A stretch of DNA of 64,000 nt, from positions 1,240,001 to 1,304,000 of the forward strand of contig NZ_CP047189.1 of assembly GCF_030440575.1 (NCBI RefSeq), given 5' to 3'. A model generated the notes under the pieces. The model was not told the DNA's origin, did no database searches, and saw only the letters and a list, made by a program, of their open reading frames with translations. The DNA is from Corynebacterium ciconiae DSM 44920 (lineage in GTDB: Bacteria > Actinomycetota > Actinomycetes > Mycobacteriales > Mycobacteriaceae). Made by a program: the position numbers and the translations under genes. Of this stretch, positions 7,010-10,455 are shown piece by piece. Numbering within the stretch: the stretch's first letter is position 1; each line of letters opens with the position of its first letter.

Positions 7010-7879
7010 CTAGTAGACCGTCAAACCGCGCGAGCGAAACACCTCGCGAACGTCCTCCACAGACTCGGCCGAGGGTGGTTTCACCCCAGACAGCTCATAG
7101 GGCAGCCCAAGTTTCTCCCACTTGTCTTGGCCCATGTTGTGAAAGGGCAGCACCTCCACGCGCTCCACGCTGTCAGACCAACGGGCGACGATATCGGCTA
7201 CCTTCTCCACATTGGCGGGATCGTCACTCCAGCCGGGCACGAGAACGAAACGCACCCAGATGGCAACCCCGTGGGCGCTGAGACGATCGCCGAAATCGAT
7301 GGTTGGTTGCAGCTCGCGACCACCGGTGACGGCGCGGTAGGTCTCGGGGTCGCCGGACTTCACATCGAGCAACACGAGATCGATATTCTCGAGGTCCTCA
7401 TCGCTGAGCCGCGCACCCAAATAGCCCGAGGTGTCGATGGCGGTGTGAATCCCGAGCGCGTGCACGGCCCGTAGGACCTTGCGGGTGAACTCGATCTGGA
7501 ACAGCGGTTCTCCGCCGGAGATCGTCAGCCCACCGCCGGAGGCGCGGAACACAGCCTTGTAGCGGCGAGCCTTGGCCACGATCTGCTCAACCGTCTGCAT
7601 CGTGCCCTCTTTCATCCCCATGGTGTCGGGGTTGTGGCAATAGACGCAGCGCAGTGGGCAGCCGGACAAGAACATCGTCATTCGGGTGCCTGGACCGTCC
7701 ACGGCTGTGACAAGCTCCCACGAGTGCACCAGACCGGCGTTACCGGTGCGGCGCGCCTCCAGCAGCTCGGTGCGTTCCGCGATATCGAACTCGGGCATGC
7801 CCAAGCCCTGGGCGCTCCCGCGCTGGCGGGGGCCCTGCTGCGGGGCGATGGTCACTGCCGCGTTGAGTCCGTCGGCCAT
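7010..7879 (-). CDS. pflA: pyruvate formate-lyase activating enzyme (radical SAM)
   Basis: A 289-residue radical-SAM enzyme that installs the glycyl radical on pyruvate formate-lyase. The CxxxCxxC cluster motif is C74-PLR-C78-VY-C81 in FLSGCPLRCVYCHNPDT, and the GGEPLFQ segment follows (TISGGEPLFQ). An N-terminal extension of about 45 residues precedes the core, so the start could instead be Met28 (MPEFDIAER). I kept Met1 because GGAG lies 12 bases upstream. It is the last gene of the pfl-grcA-pflA operon and is separated from grcA by a repeat-rich leader. Its substrate Gly would be in the separate GrcA protein, not in PFL itself. Confidence 0.95.
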   Translation of the reverse strand: MADGLNAAVTIAPQQGPRQRGSAQGLGMPEFDIAERTELLEARRTGNAGLVHSWELVTAVDGPGTRMTMFLSGCPLRCVYCHNPDTMGMKEGTMQTVEQIVAKARRYKAVFRASGGGLTISGGEPLFQIEFTRKVLRAVHALGIHTAIDTSGYLGARLSDEDLENIDLVLLDVKSGDPETYRAVTGGRELQPTIDFGDRLSAHGVAIWVRFVLVPGWSDDPANVEKVADIVARWSDSVERVEVLPFHNMGQDKWEKLGLPYELSGVKPPSAESVEDVREVFRSRGLTVY

Positions 7880-7911
7880 GGGGTGTTGACGCTCCTTGGA
7901 TGCGCGATGGT

Positions 7912-7988
7912 GGCTAGCGAGTAGAGGGCTAGCGAGAGTGGCAAGCGGTGGGGCTAGCGTCGAAGGGCTAGCCCCAAAGGGCTAGGCG
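7912..7988 (-). repeat. array of five GGCTAGCG-type repeats with competing hairpins (grcA-pflA gap)
   Basis: Copies at 7912-7920, 7926-7935, 7950-7959, 7965-7973 and 7979-7988 share the core GGCTAG. Two mutually exclusive hairpins form: CTAGCCC (7968-7974) with GGGCTAG (7979-7985), loop 4; and GGGGCTAGC (7950-7958) with GCTAGCCCC (7967-7975). The last copies overlap the grcA stop codon. A role in mRNA processing or in lowering pflA expression is inferred. Confidence 0.7.
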
Positions 7989-8233
7989 TTGTGGTGGAAG
8001 GTACGAGCCATCACGTCGAGCTGCTGCTCGCGGGTGAGCTTGACAAAGTTCACTGCGTAGCCAGAGACGCGCACCGTGAGGTTGGGGTAGTTCTCCGGGT
8101 TATCCATGGCATCCTGCAGGGTCTTGTGATCGAGCACGTTGATGTTGGCGTGGTAGAGGCCAGAGCCTGCGTTGTGCTGGGATCGGGCGGCCTTCATTGC
8201 AGCCATGCGCTCGTCAAAAGTCTTGGTGGACAT
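7982..8233 (-). CDS. grcA: separate glycyl-radical domain of pyruvate formate-lyase (GrcA-like)
   Basis: An 83-residue protein that is essentially only the C-terminal radical domain of [12 protein letters not shown] (residues 55-63) carries the radical Gly58, and the flanks [14 protein letters not shown] and [14 protein letters not shown] match the end of E. coli PflB. A short 27-residue N-terminal arm precedes it. E. coli GrcA (YfiD) is about 127 residues and acts as a spare part for oxygen-cleaved PFL. Here the adjacent PFL lacks this domain altogether, so the protein should be an obligate subunit. Start: the ATG of MSTKTFDE, with GGAG seven bases upstream. PflA is encoded next. Confidence 0.93.
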
Positions 8234-8281
8234 GAGAATTTCTCCTTGGGTGGTGAATTGATACTGAAGGGGTATGTGCGT

Positions 8282-8331
8282 GGCGGGCCCGTAGGCCCGC
8301 CGTGAGTAGGCGGGATTCGGCCCGCTCACGG
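8282..8331 (-). promoter_or_regulatory. two tandem stem-loops between pfl and grcA
   Basis: First: GGCGGGCC (8282-8289) / GGCCCGCC (8294-8301), loop CGTA. Second: CCGTGAG (8300-8306) / CTCACGG (8325-8331), extended inside by CGGG/CCCG. They share bases 8300-8301. Neither has a U-tract, so they look like processing or stability elements that let grcA be made in a ratio different from pfl. Confidence 0.6.
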
Positions 8332-8346
8332 GGGATGCCCGTGGTG

Positions 8347-10455
8347 TTAGGCGGGGCAGGTGGTGTCGTCGATAATGAACCCGGCATCCAGAATGCCCAC
8401 CAAGTTGCCCACCTGCTCATCCTTGTCGCGGCCCAAGCCGGACGGGGTGATGGTGTTGGTCAGCGAGATGCCGTCGAGCGCATCCTGGTAGTCCAGCTTG
8501 CCCACCGAGAGCATGGAGGCCACCATGCCGTGGGTGTCGGCGCCGTTTTCGGGGTTGGCGCCGGGGCTGAAGGGAGTGCCGGCTTGGTGCCCGGAAGGGA
8601 AGGAGCCGGTGGCCTTGCCGTAGACCACGTTCGAGGTGATGGTGAGCACGGACTGGGTGGGGATGGCGTCGCGATACATCGGGATGGACTTGATCTTGTC
8701 CATGACGGTGTGCACGATCGTCGCGGCGATGTCATCGGCGCGGTCGTCATCGTTGCCGTAGCGCGGGAAGTCGCCTTCGGTGACATAGTCCACGATCAGG
8801 CCGGTCTCATCGCGCACTGGGGTGACGCTGGCGTACTTGATGGCCGAGAGAGAGTCCGCCACGATCGACAACCCAGCGATACCGCAGCCCATGGTGCGAA
8901 TGATGTCGGAATCGTGCAGCGCCATCTCGATGGCCTCGTAGGCGTAGCGGTCGTGGCAGTAGTGGATGATATTCAGGGCCTCCACATAGGTTCCCACCAC
9001 CCAGTCGAGCATCTCCTCGTATTTTTGCCAGACCTCATCAAAATCAAGCGGGCCATCGCCTTCGATGGGGCTAAACAGTCCTTCCTCGGTGACCTGCTTG
9101 CCGCTGACCTCGTCGCGTCCGCCGTTCATGGCGTACAGCAGGGACTTGGCGGCATTGACGCGGGCGCCAAAGAACTGCATTTGCTTGCCCACAGCCATGG
9201 GGGAGACGCAGCAGGCGATCGCGGCATCATCGCCCCATTGCTCGCGGATCTGCTCATCGGACTCGTATTGAATCGAGGAGGTCTCGATGGAGATAGCGGC
9301 ACAGAAATCCTTATAGCCCTTAGGCAGAGCCGGATCCCAGAAGATGGTGATGTTCGGCTCCGGGGCTGGGCCCAAATTGCGCAGGGTCTGCAGCAAGCGG
9401 AAGGATGTCTTCGTCACCAGCGAGCGGCCATCGGTAGCAAACCCAGCATCAGACCAGGTGGCCCAGTAGGGATCGCCGGAGAAGATCTGGTCATAGTCGA
9501 TGGTGCGTAGGAAGCGCACGATGCGCAGCTTGATCACCAAGGCATCCATAATTTCTTGGGCGTCGTCCTCGGTGATTCGGCCAGCCTTGAGATCGCGCTC
9601 GAAGTAGATGTCGAGGAACGCGGAGAGACGGCCGATCGACATCGCAGCACCATCCTGGGACTTCACCGAGCCCAAGTAGGCGAAGTAGGTCCACTGCACT
9701 GCTTCTTGGGCGGTGGTGGCGGGCCGAGAAATGTCGAAACCATAGGCGGCTGCCATGTTCTTCAGCTTCTTCAGCGCCTTGATCTGCTCGGAGTGCTCCT
9801 CGCGGTAGCGGGCCCAGTGCTCCGAGAAGGCCTCGGTGGCGTGGGCATCTTTAGCGGCCTGCTTCTCCGCGATGAGGGCATCGACACCATAGAGGGCCAC
9901 GCGGCGGTAGTCGCCGATGATGCGGCCACGGCCATAGGCATCGGGCAGGCCAGTGATGATGTGGGAGCTGCGAGCGGCGCGAATGCGCGGGGTGTAGATA
10001 TCGAAAACCGCGTCGTTGTGTGTCTTGCGGTAGGAGGTGAAGATCTTCTTCACATCCTCATTGACGTCCTTGCCGGCCTCCTTGATGGCGGTTTCCACCA
10101 TGCGCCAACCGCCATTAGGCATCATGGCGCGCTTGAGCGGAGTGTCAGTTTGCAGACCGACGATCACATCATCGTCTTCGCTGATGTATCCGGCGGGGAA
10201 GGCATCCACATCCGCCGGGGTGGTGGTATCTACATCGTAGACGCGGCGCTTACGCTCCTCGGAGAGGTAGTTCTTCTCCAAGTGGTTCCACACGCGCATG
10301 GTTTTTTCGGTGGGACCTGCTAGGAAGCTGGCATCACCGTCGTAGGGGGTGTAGTTGCGCTGGATAAAATCGCGCAGGTTGATCTCGCTCTGCCAATCGC
10401 CGGCCGCGAAACCGTCCCATCCAATGTTGTCGGGGTTCAGGGTGTCCTGAGACAC
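8347..10455 (-). CDS. pfl: pyruvate formate-lyase, large part lacking the glycyl-radical domain
   Basis: A 702-residue formate C-acetyltransferase that would convert pyruvate and CoA to acetyl-CoA and formate. The catalytic pair is Cys415-Cys416 in IACCVSPM, matching Cys418-Cys419 of E. coli PflB (760 residues). The protein ends at [21 protein letters not shown], just where the E. coli enzyme continues into its radical domain; no RVSGYAV motif is present. That domain is encoded by grcA 113 bases downstream. The end is a clean stop with hairpins after it, not an obvious frameshift. Start is GTG with AGGTGA four bases upstream. The product is cytoplasmic, active anaerobically. Confidence 0.95.

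Follow-up and report, generated by a model that had tools for sequence, protein, structure and literature searches.

The pyruvate formate-lyase (PFL) of Corynebacterium ciconiae DSM 44920 is specified by two genes, one for a 702 aa core and one for an 83 aa protein that carries the glycyl-radical motif. Taken as a whole, the data are best explained, very probably, by a two-subunit PFL that originated by gene fission and in which the small radical subunit docks onto the core. PFL is a central enzyme of fermentation and the textbook case of oxygen-labile radical catalysis.

Organisation of the PFL locus

The genes lie on the minus strand of the window (the whole 64,000 nt stretch that was analysed) in the order core, 113 bases, small ORF, 102 bases, pflA. 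The parts of the locus are:

8347..10455, minus strand: PFL core subunit of 702 aa with a GTG start, comprising the catalytic part but lacking the C-terminal glycyl-radical segment
9208..9213, minus strand: codons for Cys415-Cys416, the catalytic cysteine pair (IACCVSPM), from the alignment to E. coli PFL
8282..8329, minus strand: two stem-loops in the gap between the core and small genes, from the minimum free energy (MFE) and z-score of the stretch 8225–8360
8242..8247, minus strand: Shine-Dalgarno (SD)-like AAGGAG, 8 nt upstream of the ATG of the small gene, from the sequence
7982..8233, minus strand: small radical subunit of 83 aa (NCBIfam GrcA2), composed of an N-terminal extension and the glycyl-radical segment
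8162..8233, minus strand: residues 1–24 of the small subunit, its N-terminal extension; predicted helix T-F-D-E-R-x-x-x-M-K-x-x-R
8060..8062, minus strand: codon of Gly58 (RVSGYA), the expected radical carrier, from the sequence and the alignment to E. coli PFL
7010..7879, minus strand: pflA, radical-SAM activating enzyme, 289 aa (TIGR02493, 298 bits; cut-off 231.75)

A sequence-only reading of the window had described a 702-codon core with Cys415-Cys416, a separate downstream gene of 83 residues with Gly58, and then pflA. This layout is confirmed by the ORFs and, for the cysteine pair, by alignment to the Cys-Cys of E. coli PFL. The stretch 8225–8360, which spans the gap between core and small gene, has an MFE of −44 kcal/mol (z −2.9), and its stem-loops could set the ratio of core and small messages; in many relatives the gap is too short for such stem-loops.

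The core alone scores above the cut-off of TIGR01255 (formate C-acetyltransferase; 997.9 against 994.2 bits), matching positions 2–678 of 744, and gives 666 bits with PF02901. The glycyl-radical motif is absent from the core chain, where the profile match ends at 678, and sits in the 83 aa protein, which matches TIGR01255 positions 684–742. This protein exceeds the cut-off of NF008341 (GrcA2; 162 bits, cut-off 145) and falls below those of TIGR04365 (GrcA/YfiD spare part; 79.5 bits, cut-off 170) and NF038360 (GrcA3; 90.9 bits, cut-off 158). Aligned to E. coli PFL, the core covers residues 10–693 and then has nine extra residues, and the small protein covers 695–756. The break had been placed exactly at the start of the glycyl-radical domain of PflB. 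This holds for the part equivalent to GrcA/YfiD, given as residues 693–759 of E. coli PFL in PMC8683613, but not for the Pfam domain Gly_radical (PF01228), which the break cuts (positions 1–65 in the core, 65–106 in the small protein).

PFL genes in the genome and its relatives

The genome consists of one contig of 2,584,365 bases, and the whole of it was searched with PF02901 and PF01228. The former gave one match and the latter two, all from the core and small genes; no full-length PFL that a spare part could repair, no second GrcA and no NrdD was found in the genome by these profiles. A full-length PFL elsewhere in the genome had been named beforehand as the finding that would speak against an obligate small subunit.

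Among 151 Corynebacterium genomes, a glycyl-radical match was found in 71 and a PFL-like match in 67, and in all 67 of the latter a core end occurs together with a separate radical-domain match. This shows that the stop codon at 8347 is neither a sequencing error nor a strain-specific mutation, both of which had been raised as possibilities. The four other genomes with a glycyl-radical match have a single one, at loci carrying the motif of NrdD (L009, L011, L015 and L016; for L011 and L016 the assignment is also by Pfam). In the genus sample as a whole, NrdD (the glycyl-radical class III ribonucleotide reductase) accounts for 13 loci (L004–L016), 12 of them recognised by the motif and one truncated at a contig end. 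The PFL loci were read in 66 of the 67 genomes, G131 being left out as it is broken over contig ends. The comparison of related species proposed with the sequence-only reading shows 65 of these 66 loci to be split and one (L204) to be a natural fusion, which is the only complete PFL among them.

In named genomes, the best 80 of 277 loci comprise 55 split and 24 full-length loci and one cut by a contig end. Split loci occur in Corynebacterium, Brachybacterium, Helcobacillus, Actinotignum, Bowdeniella and other Actinomycetaceae, as well as in Propionibacteriaceae, Tessaracoccus and Rothia, while full-length loci are found in Cellulomonas, Oerskovia, Promicromonospora, Streptomyces and others. 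The genus and named samples overlap and hold 120 split loci, 95 of them distinct (window excluded). Of 145 loci with a radical domain, 140 have a pflA-like gene after it; of the five that do not, three lie near contig ends and two are unsplit loci of Cellulomonas. The split arrangement is thus widespread and not unique to this genome. One locus, L099 (JABBOD010000015.1), lies on a contig labelled Acidobacteria, and its PFL falls among those of Promicromonosporaceae/Cellulomonadaceae, reflecting either mis-binning or transfer.

Origin of the small gene

The radical domain of the window, compared over 58 sites, is 67–81% identical to those of named unsplit PFLs (Cellulomonas, 78–79%; Sanguibacter and an Oscillospiraceae bacterium, 81%) and 84.5% identical to that of the best unnamed metagenome protein (P0155). 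Identity to E. coli GrcA is 59% and to E. coli PflB 57%. Because the identity to the radical domains of unsplit PFLs exceeds that to E. coli GrcA, the comparison points to an origin of the small protein through gene fission. The split core ends in ILDAGF, a point at which the unsplit Cellulomonas PFLs run on in one chain. Recruitment of the small gene from a phage or proteobacterial GrcA, with subsequent loss of the PFL's own end, is an improbable alternative: glycyl-radical domains, stand-alone or linked, do match in 1533 records of a phage collection, but the best place lies at 60–80% in 1480 of them and higher in none, and by eye the N-terminal extension is unlike the N-terminus of E. coli GrcA.

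One phage match (H4, 93% coverage) was considered as a split PFL and rejected, as the record encodes an ordinary full-length PFL. Another record filed under 'Bacteriophage sp.' (L212, MT835515.1) has a full-length PFL beside what by eye is a thioredoxin reductase-like gene, and is probably a bacterial contig.

In a mixture-model tree of 38 rows, 11 actinomycete split cores form one clade (support 96/97), and in a similar tree of 51 rows the split clade is weakly supported (51/92); the rows of both trees were selected by hand. A tree of 137 rows (LG+G4) does not unite the split cores but requires three changes, one of them L204, and places unsplit PFLs of the Cellulomonas type inside the split group. 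Judged from these trees, a single origin of the actinomycete split is likely.

The small subunit and its predicted N-terminal helix

In the small protein, about 24 residues precede the radical segment and are absent from the unsplit PFLs that were read. Within this extension R9, M13 and R17 are identical in all 80 distinct small proteins; in 79 of them the residue after M13 is K or R. The spacing of four residues fits one face of a helix, and a structure prediction places a helix at 696–708 in the extension. For this prediction, core and small protein were linked into one chain through a read-through residue; confidence is modest for both the helix and the radical domain (block pLDDT 59–80, last three residues 39).

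In the comparison with L034, the closest relative of the window, 71 codons of the small gene show no amino-acid change at a dS of 0.46–0.74, and the core has a dN/dS of about 0.03; in this closest pair both genes are under purifying selection. Compared with L036, L187 and L035, pN is 0.08–0.14 in the extension and 0.12–0.13 in the radical domain, with dS saturated or high; the cores of L187 and L035 were not compared with that of the window as their lengths differ. A pN of 0.367 for a 13-residue extension, obtained between the window and L159/L168, was discarded because the sequences suggest a start in the wrong register.

At NCBI the small protein is called 'autonomous glycyl radical cofactor GrcA2', a name that would suit a mere spare part, as in E. 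coli GrcA, accompanying a core that has decayed into an inactive PFL. That reading is very unlikely, since the profile search left no intact PFL for a spare part to repair, the core is full in length and as strongly conserved as the L034 comparison shows, and the pair of core and small gene is spread over five families (Corynebacteriaceae, Dermabacteraceae, Actinomycetaceae, Propionibacteriaceae and Micrococcaceae).

Two genes rather than one recoded chain

A single recoding event could join the two genes in many of the split loci: the frame of the small gene is open back into the core in 56 of the 120, as it is in the window itself (a 144-codon open frame reaching the core end), and the genes share one frame with a single stop between them in 39. 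The remaining 25 can be joined neither by a frameshift before the stop nor by one read-through, and programmed frameshifting or read-through was rejected as a general mechanism. Among the 95 distinct loci, the relative frames of core and small gene are spread 34/22/39, and TAA, TGA and TAG are all used as the core stop codon. The differences between loci in frame, stop codon and joinability argue against a common recoding route. The gap varies from 3 to 287 nt (median 41), and the small gene, with its start taken heuristically as the nearest start codon upstream of the F-D-E-R motif, begins with ATG in 115 of the 120 and has an upstream SD-like motif in 112. At one locus (L054) the core stop overlaps the SD of the small gene, a sign of translational coupling there. 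A joined chain would, moreover, carry the N-terminal extension as an insert. With the split recurring at so many loci, a sequencing error at the stop is very unlikely, and so is production of a full-length chain through frameshifting or stop read-through.

In the natural fusion, L204 (G122:C2:1368-5535), there is no stop between core and small protein, and the linker consists of the former intergenic stretch, the SD and the N-terminus of the small protein. The small gene keeps its ATG and an SD-like motif there, so that both forms could be made. About 28 other apparent one-frame fusions of about 800 aa were dismissed, as their frames cross an in-frame stop; reading of the DNA leaves L204 only, one of 66. 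A protein search with the L204 end returned lengths of 481–791 aa in the best 120 of 7998 matches, none of which reaches the 803 of L204.

A second split in the phylum

A further 23 genomes of the phylum were examined, mostly picked for short radical-domain frames, so that their counts do not give a frequency. In 21 of them the core match ends at TIGR01255 positions 665–670 and a separate protein covers about 664–744; of the other two, G289 (locus L234) is of the window type and G505 is without a PFL match. In the second type, the small protein corresponds to NCBI GrcA3, a family named from Collinsella and Enorma, and the assignment to Coriobacteriia comes by way of these names, which were found with one locus (L223).

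In the coriobacterial type, too, the radical domain has its own gene after that of the core, but the break lies about 13–16 profile positions earlier (TIGR01255 about 665, against 678–681 here), which moves the stretch ..QADNLVSMIDAYA.. to the small protein. The cores (L213–L233) end in variable acidic tails that are often Cys-rich near the end. Twelve of the 21 were used in the 38-row tree, where they form a clade with support 100/99. Forcing both split groups together lowers the log-likelihood by 233 and is rejected (p = 1e-39). Given this rejection and the distance between the breaks, the simplest reading is that the split arose independently in Coriobacteriia and actinomycetes. Coriobacteriia are mostly strict anaerobes, and so frequent oxygen exposure, to which the split had at first been tentatively attributed, is not an obvious common cause; no result of the analysis supports such an adaptation.

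Proposed two-subunit enzyme

The sequence-only reading had taken the small protein to be an obligate and replaceable subunit. Its obligate part, a two-subunit PFL with a separate radical subunit, is well supported at the level of sequence by the lack of a full-length PFL in the profile search, the co-occurrence of both parts in every PFL-bearing Corynebacterium genome and purifying selection on both genes. We infer complex formation, the radical on Gly58, the role of the helix and replaceability as follows. The core would carry the substrate and CoA sites and the cysteine pair, and the 83-residue subunit would dock at the site held by the C-terminal segment in an ordinary PFL. PflA would generate the radical on Gly58 of the small subunit, probably only when docked, and the radical would then move to the cysteine pair for catalysis. 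As to its history, an ordinary PFL gene would have undergone fission at the position that corresponds to residue 694 of E. coli PFL; the smaller part would later have acquired its N-terminal helix, probably replacing the docking once provided by a peptide bond.

By analogy with the E. coli YfiD biochemistry in PMC8683613, a radical subunit cleaved by oxygen could be swapped for a fresh one. According to the same paper, binding of YfiD to the equivalent truncated E. coli PFL was undetectable and activation 32-fold lower, and on this account docking must differ here; that the N-terminal helix explains the difference is a guess. A broader formulation seems to us evenly poised between right and wrong: that at least two fissions occurred in the Actinomycetota at different residues, that GrcA2 and GrcA3 are misnamed obligate, consumable subunits, and that the R9-M13-R17 helix is a docking element replacing the E. 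coli recognition region 696–733.

Comparison with known systems

NCBI families GrcA2 and GrcA3 already cover both small proteins under a spare-part name. Searches of the open-access PMC literature brought up no account of a split PFL, and 'GrcA2' occurs in no paper there. Two PDB entries, 38la and 38lb ('Formate acetyltransferase'), are PFL cores whose deposited sequences, natural or truncated, are without the radical domain, so that a PFL core of this kind has already been handled by others. They are not of the actinomycete type, and 38lb scores highest with the coriobacterial type.

A conserved natural two-piece PFL makes the YfiD question testable with regard to docking, activation only when docked and exchange after damage. 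Two apparently independent origins of such an enzyme lie within one phylum. The function read into GrcA2 and GrcA3, families whose partner PFL genes seem truncated next to ordinary ones, would be corrected as well.

E. coli PflB shares with the present system the core fold (a model of a split pair fits PflB over 735 residues), the Cys-Cys pair, the RVSGYA radical motif and a dedicated PflA. PflB is, however, one chain of 760 residues, whereas here the last segment has its own gene and an extra N-terminal helix. The GrcA proteins of E. coli and phages are, like the small protein, stand-alone radical domains, and E. coli GrcA/YfiD is described in PMC8683613 as able to complete a PFL without its own. 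The PFL that GrcA repairs was synthesised whole and then cleaved by oxygen, whereas no radical carrier other than the small protein was found here. The name of the NF008341 family (GrcA2) suggests a part for repair, but the context of the gene speaks for a constitutive subunit.
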